From Anaplasmataceae bacterium AB001_6 (lineage in GTDB: Bacteria; Pseudomonadota; Alphaproteobacteria; Rickettsiales; Anaplasmataceae), in NCBI GenBank assembly GCA_020002265.1, contig CP048228.1, forward strand, positions 496,001 to 560,000: 64,000 bases of DNA, read 5' to 3'. Position numbers and translations under genes: made by a program. The stretch's first letter is position 1. Each line of letters starts with the position of its first letter. This document shows positions 13,410-25,591 of this stretch, piece by piece. The notes beneath the pieces are model-generated. The model made no database searches, was not told where the DNA came from, and worked only from the letters and a program-made list of their open reading frames with translations.

Positions 13410-13794
13410 ATTTCTATAAAAAATTAAGATTAATAAGAAGAAGAGAAGATTTTTTTCAAAAAAATTTATTTTCTCTGATTGATTTTAACTATTTCTCTTG
13501 TAAATTTAAAAAATCATTTTTCATCACAGGGTAGAGTAACATCTATGCATGCCATAATTAATTGATGAAGAAATCTTTAACAGGAATATACAGATGATAC
13601 TGTATAGATTAATACATTGTTATTTTTAGGTGTGTTTTGGTTATTATTTCAATTAAAGGTTGAAATATGAAAATATATATTATATATTGTCACTGAGTAA
13701 TTAACGAATTATTTTTATTAATAGTTGATAATATCTACTATTAATTGTTATTATTCTGTTTTATCTTTTATCCGAGTAATTTAGAGGTTTTACA
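13410..13794. other. 385-bp intergenic leader of the surface-antigen array
   Basis: No ORF or tRNA is recognisable. An 8-bp inverted repeat (TATTTCAA / TTGAAATA) lies at 13645-13667 with a 7-nt loop. A second, shorter one (AATAGT / ACTATT) lies near 13719-13741. A GAGG ribosome site ends 8-10 bases before the ATG at 13795. The promoter for the first antigen gene must lie here or further upstream, but no convincing -35/-10 pair was found. Confidence 0.4.
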
Positions 13795-14892: not shown

Positions 14893-15840
14893 ATGAAAAG
14901 AATTAGTATTATATTTTCTGTTTTTTTATTAACAATTAATAATATTGAAGCTGCGATAGTGCAGAAGAAGAGTAATATATATTCTGAGATATTTTATCAA
15001 TATAGTATTATGAATGACATTAGTGTCTCTATTAAAGATTCTAAATATAAGGATAAAATTATATATGATACTGCCGTAACAAAACAAAGTATAGATGAAT
15101 CTCTTTTGGGATTTGGCTTTGAAGTAGGGTATGAATCTGGTGATATGTTTTCTTTCGGTATTATTTTTGATCATAGAGAGCACGGTTGTTTTACTAATAA
15201 TATAAACAGCAATAATAAAGATTCTTCATCTGAAGGAATATCTGGTTTTTTTAATAATGATAATACATCTTCATCCAATGGTAATGATGAAACTACAAAA
15301 ACAAGAGGATATAAATTAACTTCAACAAAATTGATTGAGCATACTCCTGCTGATGAAGATACTGATACACCACAAAAAGATGTTTTCAGAGATAAAAATA
15401 GCTATATTGATTCGATAAGCAAAAATTTTATTGGCTTGGTATCTGATGTTAATTTCCATATTAGAGAACACAAATTAACACCATCATTAGGTTTAGGGTT
15501 GGGTGTGAATCGCACCGCGGTAACATATAATACTATCGATTTTTACACTAATAATAGTAGTAATTTTACAACTGTTACTGCTTGGCCATTAGCACTATTA
15601 GCGCGTGCTGGGATATCTTATGATTTTAGTGAAAACTCTTATATTTTTACACGCATTGCAATTAATTACACTACAGAAAAAAATTTAAGCGGTAATGTAT
15701 TTGTTGATGAATTTGAGAGAGTGATTGAAGATAATGAACTTAAATCAAATACTCCTAAAGGAACCATAAATAATCAAAAATCTGCTTTTTATGGAGATTT
15801 TTCTTATCAATTTCAGTTAGGAATAGGGTTTATGTTTTGA
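14893..15840 (+). CDS. Divergent Msp2/P44-type outer membrane protein, array member 2
   Basis: A 315-aa precursor with a signal peptide of about 20 residues (LTINNIEAA). Family landmarks are weaker but in order: IYSEIFYQYSIMNDI, LLGFGFEVGYESGDMFSFGI, NFIGLVSDVNFHI, PSLGLGLGVNRTAV, WPLALLARAGISYDFSEN, and a terminal GIGFMF. A low-complexity Asn/Ser/Asp-rich insert occupies about residues 100-150 and would form an external loop. No close paralogue is present in the window. There is no SD-like sequence before the ATG and no clear promoter. Confidence 0.75.
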   Translation: MKRISIIFSVFLLTINNIEAAIVQKKSNIYSEIFYQYSIMNDISVSIKDSKYKDKIIYDTAVTKQSIDESLLGFGFEVGYESGDMFSFGIIFDHREHGCFTNNINSNNKDSSSEGISGFFNNDNTSSSNGNDETTKTRGYKLTSTKLIEHTPADEDTDTPQKDVFRDKNSYIDSISKNFIGLVSDVNFHIREHKLTPSLGLGLGVNRTAVTYNTIDFYTNNSSNFTTVTAWPLALLARAGISYDFSENSYIFTRIAINYTTEKNLSGNVFVDEFERVIEDNELKSNTPKGTINNQKSAFYGDFSYQFQLGIGFMF

Positions 15841-16690: not shown

Positions 16691-16785
16691 TTACACATAC
16701 AGTGATTTTCTTTTATTTAAAAATCCCTTTTTTATAATTTGACGCGTTATCTTTTGATTAATTAATGTATATTTTAATATACTAT

Positions 16786-16818
16786 TTGACTAATCATATT
16801 TTTTTTTATATTTATAAT
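16786..16818 (+). promoter_or_regulatory. Probable mis-spaced promoter of array member 4
   Basis: A -35 hexamer TTGACT at 16786-16791 is followed by AATCATATT exactly as in member 7. The best -10 TATAAT lies at 16813-16818, giving a 21-bp spacer instead of the 18 bp found for members 5-7; a weaker TATTTA sits at 17-bp spacing. The 5' UTR inverted repeat of the other members is missing. Expression may therefore differ. Confidence 0.5.
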
Positions 16819-16866
16819 AATATAAATTTAAAGATAAAAATAAATTAATAAGGTATATTTTAAAAT

Positions 16867-17706
16867 ATGAAAATAAAAAGAAGATTATTAAGAAGTCTGT
16901 TTTTGGTTACTATTATGAGTGTTGTATCTTTGACAACAGTTTCTGCTGCTTCTAAAAAAGCAAGCAGTGATGGTATGCAAGTAGACATCTTTTATTCTCC
17001 AAGTATCGTTAATAATGAAATTGTTATAAGCAATCCTGAGGGTGTTAATGGATTGGCAAAAGCCATCAATCTTAAAGATAATACAAATATTGCTTGGTTA
17101 GGTGGTGGAGCTAAAGTTGGTTACAAAATGGGTGATATTACTATTTCTGCTGTTACTGATTACCGTAAAACAGATTATTACTTAGATAATGAAAATACGG
17201 ATTTACTTTATAAAGTACTAGGTGGTACTATTATTGATAGTATTCCTAGACTACCTAAAACAGCTACAGAAGGTGCTTATTATATTGGGTTAAAAGATAT
17301 TAGTAAGTGGTACACTGGAATTGATGTTGAGTATGTAATAGGCATCTCTAAAGAAATATCAGCATCTGTTGGTATTGGTGCTGGTGTAGAGTATGAATCA
17401 ATAAATATTCAATATGCAACTCCAGAGAATGTAAATAGTACTGCTGAAACTAAATTAACAGCATTGCCTTTTGCTATGCAAGGTAATGCAAGTTTTGGTT
17501 ATGAAGTATCTCCTGGCATAACTCCTTATGTTGGTTATACTCTAAGATACGCTCTTGAAACAGATTTAAAACCCAAAGACGATGCTATAAAACTCCTTGG
17601 AATTGGTGATGGAACTGGAAAAACAGTAACGCCAGCAGAACTTCCTATGAAGCTTCAAAGTGGCATCGATCATATTTTAAGAATTGGTGTAAATTTTGCT
17701 TTCTAA
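16867..17706 (+). CDS. Msp2/P44-type outer membrane protein, array member 4
   Basis: A 279-aa precursor, the first of four close paralogues (members 4-7). The signal peptide ends near residue 27 (TTVSAASKK). Blocks shared with members 6 and 7 include IFYSPSI, AWLGGGAKVGYKMGDI, SAVTDYRKTDYYL, KWYTGIDVEYVIGISKE, TALPFAMQGNASFGYEV, PGITPYVGYTLRYALET and DLKPKDDAIKL; the C-terminus is GVNFAF. Variable stretches lie at about residues 55-68, 103-125 and 175-190, the expected surface loops. The duplicated terminator cassette follows. Confidence 0.88.
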   Translation: MKIKRRLLRSLFLVTIMSVVSLTTVSAASKKASSDGMQVDIFYSPSIVNNEIVISNPEGVNGLAKAINLKDNTNIAWLGGGAKVGYKMGDITISAVTDYRKTDYYLDNENTDLLYKVLGGTIIDSIPRLPKTATEGAYYIGLKDISKWYTGIDVEYVIGISKEISASVGIGAGVEYESINIQYATPENVNSTAETKLTALPFAMQGNASFGYEVSPGITPYVGYTLRYALETDLKPKDDAIKLLGIGDGTGKTVTPAELPMKLQSGIDHILRIGVNFAF

Positions 17707-17741
17707 TTTCTCTTTAACTGAGATTATTATTTAGGTATTCT

Positions 17742-17777
17742 AGACCCGTGTTGTATATATCAGCGCGGGTCTTTTTG
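17742..17777 (+). terminator. Terminator cassette, copy A
   Basis: Stem arms 17742-17753 and 17761-17772 form 12 pairs, including two G-U wobbles, around a TATATAT loop, followed by TTTTTG. It is the same cassette as after members 6 and 7, differing at a few bases. Confidence 0.88.
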
Positions 17778-17890
17778 TTATGAATTATTTAAAAATTCTT
17801 ACTTACTTAAAAAGTATTACTTTGGGTTACTATTTTTTATAATTTAGCGCATAATCCCTTGAGTAGACTAGGATCAACCCTCATATTTAT

Positions 17891-17920
17891 TTGACCTATC
17901 ATATTATATTATTTTATAAT
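17891..17920 (+). promoter_or_regulatory. Sigma70-type promoter of array member 5
   Basis: TTGACC at 17891-17896 and a perfect TATAAT at 17915-17920, separated by 18 bp. The spacer starts TATCATATT, close to the AATCAT of the other copies. It lies 78 bases before the start codon, leaving a long 5' UTR. Confidence 0.8.
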
Positions 17921-17931
17921 AGATGTGTTTT

Positions 17932-17956
17932 CTTGCATATCTTAACATGATGCAAG
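17932..17956 (+). promoter_or_regulatory. 5' UTR inverted repeat, copy 1
   Basis: CTTGCAT (17932-17938) and ATGCAAG (17950-17956) with an 11-nt loop. It starts 11 bases after the -10 box. Copies 2 and 3 stand at the same place upstream of members 6 and 7 with 6-nt loops. It could be an mRNA 5' stabilising hairpin or a palindromic operator. Confidence 0.65.
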
Positions 17957-17998
17957 TTAGATTTAGGATTCAAAACAAACTGATAGGGGTATTTTTAT

Positions 17999-19030
17999 AT
18001 GAAAATAAGAAACAGGTTATTGGGAAGCCTATCCTTGATTGCTGTTATGGGCGTTGCATCTTTGGCATCTGTCTCTGACGCGTCGGCATTAGCTGCTTCT
18101 GGGAAATCAGGTAGCAAGGGTGTGCAAGTAGGCATCTTTTATTCTCCAAGTATATTTAATGGTAAAATTGATATAAGCAGTCCTGCGGGATATACGATAC
18201 AAGGTGATACGGATGAATTTACACAAACCGTTGATTTTAAAGACCACACAGACTTTTCTTGGTTAGGCGGTGGAGCTAAAGTTGGTTACAGAATGGGTAA
18301 CATTGTTATTTCTGCTGTTACTGACTACCGTAAAGCGGATTATTACGCAAATAAAGATAACAAGGATGCTGCTTATGCTATAAGCGGAAAAGATGGCGAC
18401 TTCAGTAAACCTAGTGTGCCATCAGGTAGTGATGTAGATAGTGGTGGGCTAAGTGAGCTAGAAAATGTTGCTCCTAAACCAACTGATGCTGCTGCTTATA
18501 AAATTGACTTTAAAGATGTTTCTAAGTGGTACAGCGGAATTGATGTTGATTACATGGTAAACCTAACTAAAGGAATGTCAGCTTCTGTAGGTGTTGGTGC
18601 TGGAATGGAATATAATACAATAAATGTTAAGTATTCTGATAAAAAAGGAGGATCAATAAACCTAAAACCACCACTTGCTGCTCCTAACGTGGAGGCTAAG
18701 TTAACAGCATTGCCTTTTGTTATGCAGGGTAATTTAGGTTTTGGCTATGAAGTAATGCCTGGGATAACTCCTTATGTTGGTTATACTCTAAGGTATTCTT
18801 TTGAAACTGATTTTGATTCAAACAGCCTTGCTGTGCGTCATTGTTCAGAAGATAAGATCTACACAGATGATCCCGACGCCAGCAGCAACAACACGGTTGA
18901 TAAAGATGGTAACTGGCTGACAAGTCACCCAGATCCGAACAACGACCAAACTAAAACAACAAATCTTCCTATAAAACTTAAAAGTAATGTTGACCACATC
19001 TTCAAAGTTGGTGTAAACTTTACTTTCTAA
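17999..19030 (+). CDS. Msp2/P44-type outer membrane protein, array member 5
   Basis: A 343-aa precursor, the longest of the four close paralogues. The signal peptide ends near residue 30 (SDASALAAS). It shares FSWLGGGAKVGYRMGN, SAVTDYRKADYYA, KWYSGIDVDYMVNLTKG, TALPFVMQGNLGFGYEV and PGITPYVGYTLRYSFET with its neighbours. Extra length lies in loops at about residues 120-160, rich in Asp/Ser/Pro, and 275-320, rich in Asp/Asn. The last loop is encoded by markedly GC-richer DNA (54 of 120 bases G+C at 18841-18960), unlike the rest of the gene, which suggests acquisition by recombination. The C-terminus is GVNFTF. Confidence 0.88.
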   Translation: MKIRNRLLGSLSLIAVMGVASLASVSDASALAASGKSGSKGVQVGIFYSPSIFNGKIDISSPAGYTIQGDTDEFTQTVDFKDHTDFSWLGGGAKVGYRMGNIVISAVTDYRKADYYANKDNKDAAYAISGKDGDFSKPSVPSGSDVDSGGLSELENVAPKPTDAAAYKIDFKDVSKWYSGIDVDYMVNLTKGMSASVGVGAGMEYNTINVKYSDKKGGSINLKPPLAAPNVEAKLTALPFVMQGNLGFGYEVMPGITPYVGYTLRYSFETDFDSNSLAVRHCSEDKIYTDDPDASSNNTVDKDGNWLTSHPDPNNDQTKTTNLPIKLKSNVDHIFKVGVNFTF

Positions 19031-19065
19031 TCTCTCTAGTAGAGATTACTTGCAAGATATTTTTA

Positions 19066-19117
19066 GATTCGCGTTGTATTTTTCTCCATAATAATATTCA
19101 ACGCGAATCAGTCCTTT
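19066..19117 (+). terminator. Hairpin terminator after array member 5
   Basis: Perfect 11-bp arms GATTCGCGTTG (19066-19076) and CAACGCGAATC (19099-19109), with a 22-nt loop and a T-rich tail. It differs in sequence from the cassette after members 4, 6 and 7. A smaller hairpin (AATCTCT / AGAGATT, 19029-19047) lies just before it. Confidence 0.7.
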
Positions 19118-19202
19118 ATTTCAAAATTCTTGTTCATCTTTGCTTTTTTTCATCAAATTATCCTCAATTTCCTAATTAATAGGGGTCTATCCTAAAATTT
19201 GT

Positions 19203-19232
19203 TTGACAAATCATTTTTGTTTGTTTTATAAT
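19203..19232 (+). promoter_or_regulatory. Consensus sigma70 promoter of array member 6
   Basis: TTGACA at 19203-19208 and TATAAT at 19227-19232, both perfect consensus, with an 18-bp spacer beginning AATCAT. It is the best promoter match found in the window and lies 75 bases before the ATG at 19307. Confidence 0.88.
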
Positions 19233-19242
19233 GGCTGCGTTT

Positions 19243-19262
19243 CTTGTATATGCCAATACAAG
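19243..19262 (+). promoter_or_regulatory. 5' UTR inverted repeat, copy 2
   Basis: CTTGTAT (19243-19249) and ATACAAG (19256-19262) with a 6-nt loop. Compared with copies 1 and 3 (CTTGCAT / ATGCAAG) both arms have changed together (C-G to T-A), so pairing is preserved. Confidence 0.68.
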
Positions 19263-19306
19263 TCTAGATTTGAATCAAAAACAAACTAATTGAGGTATTT
19301 TTTAAT

Positions 19307-20158
19307 ATGAAAATAAAAAACAGATTATTAAGAAGCCTATCCTTGATTGCTGTTATAAGTGTTGTATCTTTGACGTCTGTCTCTGTTACAACAGCTTCTG
19401 CTGCTTCTAAAAAAGCAAGCAGTGATAGTATACAAGTAGGTATTTTTTATTCTCCAAGTATCATCAATGATAAAATTGATGTAACCAATCCTAAAGAGGT
19501 TAGCGCTAACGATTTAACAGGCACTATAGATTTTAAAGATCACACAAAATTTGCTTGGTTAGGTGGTGGAGCTAAAGTTGGTTACAAAATGGGTGACATT
19601 GTTATCTCTGCTGTTACTGACTACCGTAAAACAAATTATTACCTAGATAAAGATAATGTGGATATTCCTTATCAAATAGATGGTGGTAATACTCCTACTC
19701 TACCTGCAGCAGAAGGTATTGGTGCTTATCTTATAGATTTTAAAGATGTTTCTAAGTGGTACACTGGAATTGATGTTGATTATATAATAGCTATATCAAA
19801 AGAAATGTCAGTAGCTGTAGGTGCTGGTGCTGGTATGGAATATAATACAATGAACATTAACTATTTTAAAGCAAATGATACAGGTGATGACGCTGTGCCA
19901 GCTGAAGCTAAATTGACAGCTTTACCTTTTGCTATGCAAGGTAATGCAAGTTTTGGTTATGAAGTAATGCCTGGGATAACTCCTTATGTTGGTTATACTC
20001 TAAGGTATTCTTTTGAAACTGACTTGAAACCAAAAGACGATGCTGTAAAACTTGCTGGCAGTTTTGTTGGTGGTAAAGTAATTTCTGTAGACCTTCCTAT
20101 GAAGCTTAAAAGTAGCGTTGACCACATCTTCAAAATTGGTGTAAACTTTACTTTCTAA
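19307..20158 (+). CDS. Msp2/P44-type outer membrane protein, array member 6
   Basis: A 283-aa precursor with a signal peptide of about 32 residues (VTTASAASKK). It is nearly identical to member 7 in the conserved barrel blocks: GIFYSPSIINDKID, FAWLGGGAKVGYKMGD, SAVTDYRKTNYYL, KWYTGIDVDYIIAISKEMS, VAVGAGAGMEYNTMNI, TALPFAMQGNASFGYEV, and a C-terminal GVNFTF. It differs mainly in loops at about residues 60-70, 115-135, 190-205 and 258-268. It has a consensus promoter, the 5' UTR inverted repeat and the shared terminator cassette, so it looks like an expressed, self-contained unit. Confidence 0.9.
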   Translation: MKIKNRLLRSLSLIAVISVVSLTSVSVTTASAASKKASSDSIQVGIFYSPSIINDKIDVTNPKEVSANDLTGTIDFKDHTKFAWLGGGAKVGYKMGDIVISAVTDYRKTNYYLDKDNVDIPYQIDGGNTPTLPAAEGIGAYLIDFKDVSKWYTGIDVDYIIAISKEMSVAVGAGAGMEYNTMNINYFKANDTGDDAVPAEAKLTALPFAMQGNASFGYEVMPGITPYVGYTLRYSFETDLKPKDDAVKLAGSFVGGKVISVDLPMKLKSSVDHIFKIGVNFTF

Positions 20159-20193
20159 TTTCTCTCTAACTGAGATTATTATTTAAGTATTCT

Positions 20194-20232
20194 AGACCCG
20201 TGTTGTATATATCAGCACGGGTCTTTTTTATT
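20194..20232 (+). terminator. Terminator cassette, copy B
   Basis: Hairpin 20194-20224 (AGACCCGTGTTG / CAGCACGGGTCT, loop TATATAT) followed by a T run. The 77 bases at about 20155-20231 are identical or nearly so to the cassette after member 7. Confidence 0.9.
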
Positions 20233-20335
20233 TATTTAATTTGCTTTTTTTTGCTTTTTTTTTTACTTTTTTATATTTATATTCATAAAATAGCATATAA
20301 ATTTCTAATCAGTTGAAATTAATCCTAATATTTGT

Positions 20336-20365
20336 TTGACTAATCATATTTTTTTGTTTTACAAT
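20336..20365 (+). promoter_or_regulatory. Sigma70-type promoter of array member 7
   Basis: TTGACT at 20336-20341 and TACAAT at 20360-20365 with an 18-bp spacer beginning AATCATATT. It matches the promoters of members 5 and 6 in layout and in the flanking TTTG and GTGTTTTCTTG sequences. Confidence 0.8.
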
Positions 20366-20376
20366 AAATGTGTTTT

Positions 20377-20396
20377 CTTGCATATCTTAATGCAAG
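20377..20396 (+). promoter_or_regulatory. 5' UTR inverted repeat, copy 3
   Basis: CTTGCAT (20377-20383) and ATGCAAG (20390-20396) with a 6-nt loop, 11 bases after the -10 box, as in copies 1 and 2. Confidence 0.68.
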
Positions 20397-20446
20397 TCTA
20401 GATTTGAATTAAAATTAAAAACAAAACTAATTGAGGTATTTTTAAT

Positions 20447-21250
20447 ATGAAAATAAGAAACAGGTTATTAGGAAGCCTATCCTTGATTGCTGTTATGAGT
20501 GTTGTATCTTTGGCATCAGCTTCTGCTGCAACAACTTCTGCTGCTTCTAAAAAAGCAAGCAGTGATGGTATGCAAGTAGGTATTTTTTATTCTCCAAGTA
20601 TCATTAATGATAAAATTGATGCAACTGCTGAGGCTGCTGGCGCAGAAGTAAAACCAATAGACCTTACAGGTAACACAAAATTTGCTTGGTTAGGTGGTGG
20701 AGCTAAAGTTGGTTACAAAATGGGTGATGTTGTTATCTCTGCTGTTACTGACTACCGTAAAACAGATTATTACGCATCTGATGATAACAAGGATCTACCT
20801 TTCCCTGTCCCTACTGCTACTGCTACTGCTACTGATGCTGGTAAGATTGAGAGCTTTGTAGATGTTAGTAAATGGTACACTGGAATTGACGTTGATTACA
20901 TGATAGCTATATCAAAAGAAATGTCAGTAGCTGTAGGTGCTGGTGCTGGTATGGAATATAATACAATGAATATTAAGTATGGTACTACTGATACTACTGG
21001 TGCTGCTATCTCCGCAGACGCTAAACTAACAGCTTTACCTTTTGCTTTGCAAGGTAATGCAAGTTTTGGTTATGAAGTAACTCCTGGAATAACTCCTTAT
21101 GTTGGTTATACTCTAAGATACGCTTTTGAAACTGATTTGAAACCAAAAGACGATGCTGTAACACTTAACACTAATCTTGGGCTTAAAGAATTAAAGCTTA
21201 AAAGTAGCGTTGACCACATCTTCAAAATTGGTGTAAATTTTGCTTTCTAA
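20447..21250 (+). CDS. Msp2/P44-type outer membrane protein, array member 7
   Basis: A 267-aa precursor with a signal peptide of about 31 residues (TTSAASKK). It carries the same barrel blocks as members 4-6 (FAWLGGGAKVGYKMGD, KWYTGIDVDYMIAISKEMS, TALPFALQGNASFGYEV, PGITPYVGYTLRYAFET) and ends GVNFAF. The loop near residues 120-135 is encoded by three exact copies of ACTGCT (20813-20830), giving alternating Thr-Ala. The promoter, 5' UTR and terminator match member 6 closely, so the two units arose by recent duplication or are kept alike by gene conversion. Confidence 0.9.
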   Translation: MKIRNRLLGSLSLIAVMSVVSLASASAATTSAASKKASSDGMQVGIFYSPSIINDKIDATAEAAGAEVKPIDLTGNTKFAWLGGGAKVGYKMGDVVISAVTDYRKTDYYASDDNKDLPFPVPTATATATDAGKIESFVDVSKWYTGIDVDYMIAISKEMSVAVGAGAGMEYNTMNIKYGTTDTTGAAISADAKLTALPFALQGNASFGYEVTPGITPYVGYTLRYAFETDLKPKDDAVTLNTNLGLKELKLKSSVDHIFKIGVNFAF

Positions 21251-21285: not shown

Positions 21286-21327
21286 AGACCCGTGTTGTAT
21301 ATATCAGCACGGGTCTTTTTTATTATT
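21286..21327 (+). terminator. Terminator cassette, copy C
   Basis: Hairpin 21286-21316, the same sequence as copy B, followed by TTTTTTATT. It ends the transcription unit of member 7. Confidence 0.9.
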
Positions 21328-21458: not shown

Positions 21459-23294
21459 ATGAGAATTAAACATAAAGTAAGAGGATGCCTTACGTTATTG
21501 GCAGTTTTTTGTGCAACATCTTTTAGTTTAAGCGAATTAAATGCTGCTGATAAAGCTATAAATAAAAAGAAATCTGGTATGTATATTGGAGGCTTTTATG
21601 CTCCCAGTAACATGATGCTTCCTAAAATTAATACTAGTGGTGATAGTGGATCATCAAGTGCTGGTGGTGCATCTATAAATATAGATGATAGTGTAACTCC
21701 AGCTTTACCTGCAACTGGAACTATAAACTTGCCTGGAGCATCTGGAGGCAATGGTGGAATTTTGCTAACAGACAAAAGTGAATGGGCTAATTTAGGAATA
21801 GGAGGGGAAATTGGATACAATTTTGGTAACTTTTCTGTAGGAGCATTAATAGATTATAGAAAATATGAAGATGATTCAACCAGTAGTGATAGTGGTACTT
21901 CAGATGCTGGAGGAACAAGTGTTACTACGTTGTTTGAAGCACATGAAAGTGCTGGTAACATTGACCCTTTGGCCTATGATACTAATCATGTATTTACAGC
22001 TATTCCTTTAAATATACAATCAATAGTAAATGGTACTTATACTGGTGTAGATAATAGAGCTGTACGCTATGTAGATAGCGGTGCTGATGGCGGTATAACA
22101 AATAATACTTTGAATATAATTGATGTAAAAGATAGTGGCGAAAGTGTAAATTCTGGTGGAATTTTAAGTAGTGGAACTGGAACGGACTATGATATAACAA
22201 ATTCTGATGGTTTTGTTAGTAATGGACAATTAGGACAAAGTGATAGTATTAACGGAAGATTATTGGGCTTTAAAGCTGTTTCTACTGGAACTACTACTAG
22301 TGTAAAAATAAGCAAGATGGAAAAGACATTCTTAGGTGCTGTTGCTGATTATAATATTAATATTAGTCCCAAATTTACAGCTTTTATAGGTGCTGGTGCT
22401 GGTGTTGATATTGTCAAAGGTACTACAAAAATTACTGGTGGTGGAACTACTAACATTTATGCTACTAAACAAACTGATCCTATTTCTGCATTTGAAGCAA
22501 CAGGTACAGATGCTATATATAAATTCACTCCAGAAACTCCTGAAGGTTTAATGATATATAAATTAGCAGGTAGTAGTGAATATATCCATGAAGGACAAAA
22601 GCATCCTTCTGCTACAAATAATTATGCATTAACTTATAAATTAAGTGGACCTGTTGCTCTTACAGGAGAAAATGGGCCTACAGGTACAGCAAATTCATTA
22701 CTGGTTGCTAAGTACTCTGAACCATTTATGCTAGATGAATCAAAATTACCTGCACATAATATGCAATTGGCTGATGAAGATTATGATGATGCTACGCTAA
22801 TTGGAACTTATACTTTTTCAGATATAGATGTATCAAAAGATTTTGATACTAGCGTATTTGCTATGCAAGGTAGAGTAGGTATTGAATATCGTATTTCTGA
22901 TTCTATAGCTCCTTATGCTACATACACTGCTAGATACAGTGCATCAAAAGATATTACCGTTAATTTAGATAATAATTCATCTAGTGATGGTGCTCTTGGT
23001 GTATTAGATATAACTAGTGGAGAAATTGCTCCACATACAGTTAACATTGCTCATACAAATTGTGATCTAACTGTACAACCTGGTGATCTTGCTAATATAT
23101 TGCAAACTCCTGTAATGGCAGATACAGTAACATCTACGGTAGATACTACTAACAAAGTAACGATAACTGTTCCTAGTGATAACGGTACTATGCGTAATAC
23201 TACACCTTCTTCGGTAGGCGACAAAAGCGTTAAAGTAAGCATACCTAATGCTTTAGACCATGTGTTTGCTATAGGTGTTAAATTCTATTTTTAA
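21459..23294 (+). CDS. Large Msp2/P44-related outer membrane protein, array member 8
   Basis: A 611-aa precursor, about twice the family's usual size. The signal peptide ends near residue 30 (LSELNAADK). The same barrel landmarks occur in order but are separated by long insertions: GMYIGGFYAPSNM, ANLGIGGEIGYNFGNFSVGALIDYRKYE, MEKTFLGAVADYNI, FTAFIGAGAGVDIVKG, VFAMQGRVGIEYRISDS, PYATYTARYSASKD and a terminal GVKFYF. The insertions (about residues 150-285 and 325-460, plus a C-terminal loop) are Gly/Ser/Thr/Asp-rich and probably surface exposed. It is paralogous to member 9 along its length. A palindrome-and-repeat block lies upstream and a perfect terminator downstream. Confidence 0.85.
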   Translation: MRIKHKVRGCLTLLAVFCATSFSLSELNAADKAINKKKSGMYIGGFYAPSNMMLPKINTSGDSGSSSAGGASINIDDSVTPALPATGTINLPGASGGNGGILLTDKSEWANLGIGGEIGYNFGNFSVGALIDYRKYEDDSTSSDSGTSDAGGTSVTTLFEAHESAGNIDPLAYDTNHVFTAIPLNIQSIVNGTYTGVDNRAVRYVDSGADGGITNNTLNIIDVKDSGESVNSGGILSSGTGTDYDITNSDGFVSNGQLGQSDSINGRLLGFKAVSTGTTTSVKISKMEKTFLGAVADYNINISPKFTAFIGAGAGVDIVKGTTKITGGGTTNIYATKQTDPISAFEATGTDAIYKFTPETPEGLMIYKLAGSSEYIHEGQKHPSATNNYALTYKLSGPVALTGENGPTGTANSLLVAKYSEPFMLDESKLPAHNMQLADEDYDDATLIGTYTFSDIDVSKDFDTSVFAMQGRVGIEYRISDSIAPYATYTARYSASKDITVNLDNNSSSDGALGVLDITSGEIAPHTVNIAHTNCDLTVQPGDLANILQTPVMADTVTSTVDTTNKVTITVPSDNGTMRNTTPSSVGDKSVKVSIPNALDHVFAIGVKFYF

Positions 23295-23520
23295 TATCTA
23301 ATCAATATTTTTTATGATAATACACGCAATATTATGATACGAATATTGCGTGTTTATATTTTTTCCATATTTCTTTGATAGGATATCCTTATATTTATCA
23401 AAAAATTTGATGATTAGCATGGATATTCGTACCCAACATTTTAAATTATGTATTTATAGGTATTAAATTCTATTTTTAATATCTAATCAATATTTTTTAT
23501 GATAATACACGCAATATTGT
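23271..23520 (+). repeat. Duplicated 3' end of the large antigen gene
   Basis: The last 24 bases of member 8 plus the start of its 3' UTR (23271-23333) recur at 23456-23518 with a single mismatch, a period of 185 bp. The second copy encodes an orphan GIKFYF plus stop and only the left half of the terminator hairpin. It is the remnant of a gene copy or a short segmental duplication. Confidence 0.85.
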
Positions 23521-23680: not shown

Positions 23681-25591
23681 ATGAAAAGTAAATGTAAAGT
23701 AAGAACTTGCCTTACGCTGTTGGCAATTTTTTCTATAACATCTTTTAATCTGGAAGAATTGAAAGCCGATGATAAAGTTAAAGTTATGCTTATGCTGAAG
23801 AGAAAAGAGGTGAAGCCTAGACCTGGTATGTATGTTGGCGGTTTTTATTCTCCTAGCAATATGACACTTCCTGAGATCGGTTCTTCTGAAGCTATGGCGC
23901 TTAATGTTGAAAATATAAGCGTAAATATTACTGAAGTAGATTCTACAGTTGTTCCTAATTTATCTGGTGTTGTAAATTTGAATGTACCTAATTTAGGAGA
24001 AACGAAGATACCTTCGAATGATAAAGAGGCAAAATGGTCAAAATTAGGGTTTGGAGGAGAAATTGGATATAATTTCGGTAACTTTTCTATAGGGGCATTA
24101 ATAGATTATAGAAAATATGAAGCTACTTTAGCAGGTGTTGATAAATTATTAACTACTTCTTCTGCATATACATCTCCTGCATATACATTTATTGAAGATC
24201 ATGAACCAATTCTTTTGGACCCTTCTGGTATCGATGATGCTGCTCATTATGTTAATCCTGACCGTGTTTTTACAACTATTCCTTTGAATGTAAAATCGAT
24301 GGCGGTAGGTACAAAGGCGTTTTTAAAAGACGCAGAAAACAGAGCTGTACTTTATGAAGATTTAGGCAAAGATGATGGTAGAACAAATAATACCTTAAAT
24401 GCAATTAAAGCGATATTAAAAGATGGTAGCATAGCTTATGATACCTCAGGTGTTTTAAATAAGAGACAAGGGGAGAACTATGATTTAGAAAACGTTACAC
24501 ATAATCTTAATATCACAGAAGGACAATTAGGGCTAAGTGATGGTTTAATTGGAAGAGGGATAGGTTTTAAGACTATTCTTGATAAATCTCCTGCTATTAT
24601 AACAAAGATAACTAATATGGAAAAAACGTTCTTAGGTGCTGTTGCCGATTATAACATTAATTTTACTCCTAAATTTGCGGCTTTCGTGGGTGTGGGTGCT
24701 GGTATTAATCTTGTTAAGGGTAAAGCAAATATTTCTGCTGGAGCTTATAATTTTAAAATTTATCCTACCATAGACACTAATGATATTTCTGGTTTTAAAT
24801 CAACAAGTGGTGATACGATATATAATTTTGCACCTACTTCGGGTGCTTCGACACCAGAAGATGCATGGATACACATATTAACAGCAGGTAGTCTTGTAGG
24901 GGATGGTGGTGAGCATATTGCTAATATGCAAGGAATTCCTGAGCTTGATTATAATCTTCGTTATCAATATGCGAAACTTGTGGATGGAAGTGCCGTTATG
25001 GTTGATGGTACAAGTGGACCTGAAGGAACAAAAAATTCTATATTAATTGCTAAATTTTCTGAACCAATTGAGTTAAAAGAAGTAGCACCTCACAATAAAA
25101 ATCTAGGAGATGATGCTTATAAAGATGAATTGATTGCTACTTATAGTACTTCAGATTTGGATACATCAGGAGATTTTAATACTAATGTATTTGCTGCACA
25201 AGGTAGAATAGGTATTGAATACCATATTTCTGATTTTATAGCTCCTTATGCTGCATATACTGCCAGATATAGTGCAGCAAAAGATGTTAATGTTGATATG
25301 CCAATAGCTACTTTTAATAATAAGTTAGACATTTCTACTGGAAAAGAAATTGTACCACATAAAATTACGGTTGAAAATGACAATGATATTCTTGCTAAAC
25401 CTAGTGTTGAAACAGATTATATTAAAACACCTAAAGTAAAATCTTTATATGAAGTAGATAGTAGCAAAGTAGCACTAACAGCTAATATTAGCAATTCTAT
25501 AAAAAATGAGGATAAAGTTAAGAATGTTAAAGTAAGCATACCTAGTTCCTTGGATCATGTATTTACTGTAGGTATTAAATTCTATTTTTAA
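23681..25591 (+). CDS. Large Msp2/P44-related outer membrane protein, array member 9
   Basis: A 636-aa precursor, paralogue of member 8. The signal peptide ends near residue 30 (LEELKADD). It shares GMYVGGFYSPSNM, KLGFGGEIGYNFGNFSIGALIDYRKYE, MEKTFLGAVADYNINFTPKF, AFVGVGAGINLVKG, VFAAQGRIGIEYHISDF, PYAAYTARYSAAKD and a terminal GIKFYF. The long loops align in position with those of member 8 but differ in sequence, the pattern expected of surface loops diversifying under immune or host pressure. A 13-bp hairpin terminator follows at 25634. Confidence 0.85.
   Translation: MKSKCKVRTCLTLLAIFSITSFNLEELKADDKVKVMLMLKRKEVKPRPGMYVGGFYSPSNMTLPEIGSSEAMALNVENISVNITEVDSTVVPNLSGVVNLNVPNLGETKIPSNDKEAKWSKLGFGGEIGYNFGNFSIGALIDYRKYEATLAGVDKLLTTSSAYTSPAYTFIEDHEPILLDPSGIDDAAHYVNPDRVFTTIPLNVKSMAVGTKAFLKDAENRAVLYEDLGKDDGRTNNTLNAIKAILKDGSIAYDTSGVLNKRQGENYDLENVTHNLNITEGQLGLSDGLIGRGIGFKTILDKSPAIITKITNMEKTFLGAVADYNINFTPKFAAFVGVGAGINLVKGKANISAGAYNFKIYPTIDTNDISGFKSTSGDTIYNFAPTSGASTPEDAWIHILTAGSLVGDGGEHIANMQGIPELDYNLRYQYAKLVDGSAVMVDGTSGPEGTKNSILIAKFSEPIELKEVAPHNKNLGDDAYKDELIATYSTSDLDTSGDFNTNVFAAQGRIGIEYHISDFIAPYAAYTARYSAAKDVNVDMPIATFNNKLDISTGKEIVPHKITVENDNDILAKPSVETDYIKTPKVKSLYEVDSSKVALTANISNSIKNEDKVKNVKVSIPSSLDHVFTVGIKFYF

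Follow-up and report, generated by a model that had tools for sequence, protein, structure and literature searches.

A shared leader inverted repeat in three tandem antigen-like genes of Anaplasmataceae bacterium AB001_6: a possible 5' mRNA-stabilising hairpin

Three neighbouring outer-membrane antigen-like genes of Anaplasmataceae bacterium AB001_6 carry the same perfect inverted repeat just downstream of their promoters. What does this repeat do there, does it act as RNA or as DNA, and does it act at all? The genes, which we call members 5, 6 and 7 after their order in a cluster of nine, lie in a 64,000-nucleotide stretch (contig CP048228.1, positions 496,001 to 560,000), referred to below as the window; coordinates are window positions unless stated otherwise. 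We tentatively favour the view that the repeat folds into an ompA-like 5' mRNA stabiliser within a duplicated antigen expression cassette, a reading to which we assign a probability of about 0.42.

The elements concerned are the following:

17891..17920, + strand: promoter of member 5, TTGACC, 18-base spacer, TATAAT, 11/12 consensus positions
17932..17956, + strand: inverted repeat and predicted mRNA hairpin of member 5, 7-bp stem, 11-base loop (arms CTTGCAT at 17932-17938 and ATGCAAG at 17950-17956)
17999..19030, + strand: member 5, outer-membrane antigen-like paralogue, 343 aa
19203..19232, + strand: promoter of member 6, TTGACA, 18-base spacer, TATAAT, 12/12 consensus positions
19243..19262, + strand: predicted hairpin of member 6, 7-bp stem, loop of 6 (arms CTTGTAT at 19243-19249 and ATACAAG at 19256-19262), the doubly changed copy
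19307..20158, + strand: member 6, antigen-like paralogue, 283 aa
20336..20365, + strand: promoter of member 7, TTGACT, 18-base spacer, TACAAT, 10/12 consensus positions
20377..20396, + strand: predicted hairpin of member 7, 7-bp stem, loop of 6 (arms CTTGCAT at 20377-20383 and ATGCAAG at 20390-20396)
20447..21250, + strand: member 7, antigen-like paralogue, 267 aa

An initial annotation of this DNA had described the three promoters as TTGACN, an 18-bp spacer and TATAAT or TACAAT, and the arms as CTTGCAT/ATGCAAG in two copies and CTTGTAT/ATACAAG in the third. Both descriptions were borne out by script, and the 7-bp pairing is perfect in 3/3 copies. The 11-base gap that it gave between the -10 element and the first arm applies to members 5 and 7, whereas member 6 has a gap of 10; the difference in loop length (11, 6 and 6 bases in members 5, 6 and 7) had gone unmentioned. 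An equally good repeat, meaning 7 bp with two or more G/C in each arm and a start 4-16 bases after the -10 element, arose in 0.5%, 0.8% and 0.4% of 5000 dinucleotide shuffles of the respective leaders. Since the three copies share one ancestor, this rarity counts once.

Would the repeat be part of the message? In Ehrlichia, the five of 12 mapped transcript starts that the available portion of the source gives fall 3, 3, 5, 6 and 8 bases past the -10 element (PMC3836757). Counted from the -10 element, the first arm of members 5, 6 and 7 begins here at bases 12, 11 and 12. Because those Ehrlichia starts would all fall before the arm, we predict that transcription starts upstream of it and that the whole repeat lies inside the message. 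A start at base 7, as assumed in our folding, would leave 4-5 free 5' bases ahead of the stem, and the Ehrlichia range would leave 3-9.

Segments cut around the already known repeat fold at -6.3, -5.5 and -7.5 kcal/mol in members 5, 6 and 7, with z scores of -2.5, -3.7 and -4.0. The mean stem pair probability is 0.92 in member 6 and 0.98 in member 7, and 0.10 in the 132-base transcript of member 5. It is unlikely that the hairpin hides the ribosome site, because holding the arms open leaves the modelled translation start as open as before in member 6 (0.45 to 0.45) and member 7 (0.43 to 0.43) and less open in member 5 (0.48 to 0.40). No Rfam family reached its gathering threshold anywhere in the window, and at E values up to 1 the region 17700-20500 gave two sub-threshold matches, neither of them on the hairpins.

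The mechanism that we propose would operate as follows. The three members would each be a copy of one cassette, in which a near-consensus sigma-70 promoter is followed by a hairpin near the message 5' end, by a ribosome-binding site well downstream of it in a leader of some 70 bases, by the antigen-like gene itself and by a terminator stem. Once folded in the cell, the hairpin would structurally shield the RNA near its 5' end and so retard 5'-end-dependent decay by RppH and then RNase E, and the surface-protein messages would thereby be abundant and live longer. The genome encodes both RNase E/G and RppH, the latter above its curated cut-off (149.6 against 116 bits). Stem-loops close to the 5' end have been reviewed as mRNA stabilisers (PMC3997798, PMC7509114), and the remark of the initial annotation that no element of this form had been described was therefore too strong. 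The reviewed sections describe 5' stem-loops of Escherichia coli ompA and papA, besides the vacA, recA and aprE leaders elsewhere, that resemble our predicted element in being short 5' hairpins far from the ribosome-binding site; the ompA and papA hairpins also sit on an outer-membrane or surface-protein message, and the RppH and RNase E/G enzymes are encoded here. Unlike them, the present element has no Rfam relation, a single short stem, 3-9 predicted free bases and a setting of tandem paralogues.

Is the pairing under selection, or is the repeat a neutral relic, that is, a chance repeat of the ancestral leader that was duplicated along with the gene and has simply had too little time to decay, the change on both arms of member 6 being coincidental? 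One C-G pair of members 5 and 7 is T-A in member 6, which amounts to one pair and one change among three sequences, in a register taken from the covariance-model alignment (MAFFT misplaced the loop of member 5). Judged by coding identity, member 5 is the most distant of members 4 to 7: its identity to the others is 70-75%, while members 6 and 7 share 82.6%, members 4 and 6 78.7%, and members 4 and 7 77.4%. The T-A state of member 6 is probably derived and the C-G pair older, since member 5 and member 7 share the latter. Between members 6 and 7, the bases ahead of the arm and those of the loop have together diverged at 7 of 16 sites and the arms at 2 of 14, namely at both ends of one pair, and the pairing is still perfect, which argues against a relic. 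Two random arm changes would leave all seven pairs intact in about 3-4% of cases, and in a simple neutral simulation with assumed branch rates the full set of pairs survived in 0.3-2.7% of runs, and survived with a compensated change in 0.07-0.18%. We regard the relic as unlikely, if still a serious contender, and selection acting on the pairing as somewhat the better bet.

Several results nevertheless weigh against the stabiliser, and part of them are what a relic would leave behind. Members 5, 6 and 7 are tandem duplicates whose homology spans the whole leader, comparable inverted repeats are common in the window (38 distinct centres in 64 kb), and no convincing copy was found beyond the antigen cluster. 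The covariation is not significant, as 165 of 500 column shuffles equal the single-pair signal of a stem that is 100% paired in 3/3 copies; the selection for pairing that the initial annotation took the joint change of both arms to support is plausible, but the covariation amounts to one pair in one copy. An alignment with a fourth, antisense row gave a signal equalled in 5 of 500 shuffles and was discarded, that row being spurious. Members 5 and 7 are nearly identical in this stretch (arms 0/14, loop 0/6 and initial stretch 1/11 different), and because they scarcely differ across it the agreement of their stems is uninformative. The flank is partly conserved as well, since the 14 bases 3' of the stem show a single difference between members 6 and 7. 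Taken at full length, the leaders are no more stably folded than their shuffles (z 0.74, 0.03 and -0.97), and at equilibrium the stem of member 5 loses to pairing with the coding region, although it would form first. A 5' stabiliser wants about 2-4 free bases before its stem. With a start like that of p28-Omp, at base 3, there would be 8-9, which is long for such an element; RppH may gain access through the free 5' bases, most of all with a start so near the -10 element. Bacillus subtilis RppH requires just two unpaired bases (PMC3997798), and a large decay study in E. coli, in the part available, gives hairpin height little weight and finds single-stranded length important (PMC11541907). Lastly, the hairpin is missing from member 4, a close paralogue.

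The initial annotation had offered two alternatives, an mRNA hairpin and a palindromic site for a dimeric regulator, and of these the hairpin fits better. If the repeat acted as DNA, a dimeric helix-turn-helix regulator would bind it just downstream of the promoter, at a position typical of repressor sites. DNA-binding regulators, Tr1 and EcxR/ApxR, do control antigen genes at Anaplasma and Ehrlichia promoters (PMC7971322, PMC13410764), and three HTH_3 proteins are encoded in the genome. We nonetheless consider an operator improbable. The half-sites are 6, 6 and 11 bases apart, so their spacing is not constant, and the 5-bp shift disfavours a rigid dimeric operator because it puts one half-site on the opposite helix face, a change that RNA loops tolerate. 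In a genome search for one half-site form (TTGCAT/ATGCAA with 5-13 bases between), five places were found: two in these leaders, two inside long reading frames (269 aa in one case, 819 aa or more in the other), and a fifth that precedes a tRNA-Lys gene by 60 bases (locus L049, 1501-1521). The last would speak for a dispersed operator, but its spacing is 9. Within the window, matches at up to 3 mismatches numbered 14 against 16.6 in shuffles. None of the three HTH_3 genes lies in the window, the genome-wide search having covered HTH_3 and not other helix-turn-helix families. In the available text on Ehrlichia chaffeensis, Tr1 protects sites far upstream, from -143 to -94 (p28), from -130 to -81 (omp-1B) and from -355 to -306, with the motif A(C/T)TATA (PMC7971322), unlike the repeat described here. 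The loop letters differ too (ATCTTA against ATGCCA, 3 of 6 positions, with five extra bases in member 5). RNA is favoured over DNA because the loop varies in length and letters, the site falls within the predicted transcript, and the terminators of the same cassettes vary alike.

A hairpin in the RNA need not act on decay. It could serve early transcription, through pausing or polymerase escape, or be the site of an RNA-binding protein or small RNA. Such roles would suit a hairpin that falls in about the first 30 bases of the transcript and follows a promoter of exceptional strength. We find them very doubtful all the same; the loop letters are not kept, which argues against sequence-specific recognition of the loop, and the window has no Rfam match that reaches its gathering threshold, which counts against them too.

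Member 4 and the ends of the cassettes bear on the stabiliser reading in different ways. The features are:

16786..16836, + strand: leader of member 4, TTGACT at 16786, TATAAT at 16813, spacer of 21, then 17 bases (16820-16836); no hairpin
17742..17772, + strand: intrinsic terminator after member 4
19066..19109, + strand: stem after member 5 that resembles a terminator, with 11 pairs, a loop of 22 bases and a weak T run; absent from the calls of the terminator scan
20194..20224, + strand: intrinsic terminator after member 6
21286..21316, + strand: intrinsic terminator after member 7

Members 4 and 5 can be aligned over one block that stops just past the -10 element (16728-16819 with 17833-17921) and over a second one further on (16837-16924 with 17972-18056); between the blocks lie 17 bases in member 4 and 50 in member 5. 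Loss of the hairpin in member 4 is the simpler history, because member 5, the most distant copy, has it. The terminators of members 4, 6 and 7 are nearly identical in stem, with a loop of 7, while the stem after member 5 has different letters and is still fully paired, three pairs having changed on both sides (by eye). This cassette terminator, an RNA-type structure, thus varies its letters and loop with pairing kept, and the leader hairpin would evolve in the same manner. From its promoter spacing and missing hairpin, the region 16728-16866 of member 4 is possibly that of a poorly expressed antigen copy. It is even conceivable, if quite improbable, that this lineage-private hairpin is a copy-specific expression setting, with the paralogues that have promoter and hairpin expressed and member 4 turned down, so that the leaders rather than a regulator would decide which antigen is chosen.

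How far does the element extend beyond these three genes? A covariance model built from two copies recovers the third at 43 bits. Scanning with such a model, as the initial annotation had proposed, gave no further convincing match, either in the own genome or among 66 others from the family, the latter scanned with the stricter filters used above 40 genomes. A fourth match in the own genome, at 20.1 bits and E 1.86, lies upstream of a gyrB-like frame and was taken as chance. One of the 66 genomes (G071) gave a match at the E 0.05 level (27.6 bits, E 0.042); we count it as chance as well, for its own strand folds into two other stems without the stem of the model, and within its locus no closed frame of 60 aa follows downstream. 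A pattern search of the own genome yielded the three known copies only, and a DNA similarity search recovered, besides members 5-7, the promoter half of member 4 (E 1.7e-5), with 18 further matches that were all weak (E 0.005 or above). A loose pattern matched in 11 of 54 genomes, our own included, against 2 for the reversed control, counted irrespective of the genomic contexts of the matches. The genomes searched contain no second member of the genus, and relatives of the antigens were met in 4 of 34 other genomes as weak matches (best E 2.3e-4) that are too distant for leader alignment. In named genomes, no relative was confirmed for the antigens or for the FtsY-like protein encoded next to them.

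Among the other leaders of the cluster, that of member 1 (start 13795) contains a longer imperfect hairpin at 13706-13756, with 25-base arms that are 76% complementary, a predicted -10.3 kcal/mol and a position about 40 bases before the start codon; its z score is -3.2 for the chosen segment and -1.7 for a longer one. The leaders of the genes at 14893, 15908, 21459 and 23681 gave no fold signal beyond shuffles.

The antigen family recalls the p28-Omp genes of E. chaffeensis, which, in the portions of the sources available, are likewise monocistronic outer-membrane antigen genes with sigma-70-like promoters (PMC2694197, PMC3836757). Transcript start and start codon are 34 and 26 bases apart there, whereas about 70 are predicted here; palindromes and direct repeats are reported there upstream of the -35/-10 elements, whereas ours stand in the leader; and the -35/-10 elements there are farther from consensus. 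As far as these portions go, studies of how this family controls its antigen genes deal mainly with promoters and DNA-binding regulators (PMC2694197, PMC3836757, PMC7971322, PMC13410764), and among the titles listed in searches of the open-licence literature none concerned a leader hairpin in those genes. Should the hairpin govern how long the messages last, antigen control would gain a simple, testable element of another kind, with member 4 as a natural control; at present it is a modest feature restricted to one lineage, and would belong to a known kind of element.

The strength of the promoters can be set against the remainder of the DNA. Those of members 6 and 5 score highest among the 60 listed of the 83 promoter-like sites in 13.1 kb. 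As a class, such sites are not clearly enriched in these 13.1 kb (83 against 71.5 in shuffles, standard deviation 8.6). TTGAC-N followed by 17 to 19 bases and TATAAT occurs six times in the 1.01-Mb genome, twice at these genes, against four times for the reversed control pattern. Another near-consensus match, at genome positions 300998-301027 on the minus strand (L038), precedes a 260-aa frame by about 170 bases, and a leader structure of -9.9 kcal/mol in 45 bases is predicted after it.

The genome is a single contig of 1,013,119 bases, and between 13.8 and 25.6 kb of the window nine consecutive frames read as outer-membrane antigen-like genes. They are flanked by a gene for an FtsY-like SRP54-type GTPase before and by secG-like and CTP synthase genes after. 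A Pfam scan of seven of the nine frames (all except those at 19307 and 23681) placed member 1 above cut-off in Surface_Ag_2, a match in keeping with an assignment to Anaplasmataceae, and gave sub-threshold barrel matches for three others and none for the remaining three. With the member 7 protein as query, the own genome returned member 7 itself and members 1, 3, 4, 5, 6 and 8, leaving members 2 and 9 unmatched. Members 4 to 7 (starts 16867, 17999, 19307 and 20447) are close paralogues, with a protein identity to member 7 of 61-74% for members 4, 5 and 6. Two much larger antigen-like frames follow this group, at 21459-23294 (611 aa) and 23681-25591 (636 aa), and sequence around the end of the former partly recurs near 23460-23520 (by eye). 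The coding sequences of members 6 and 7 contain a perfect 7-bp inverted repeat of their own, TTACCTT/AAGGTAA, at 19922-19944 and 21035-21057.

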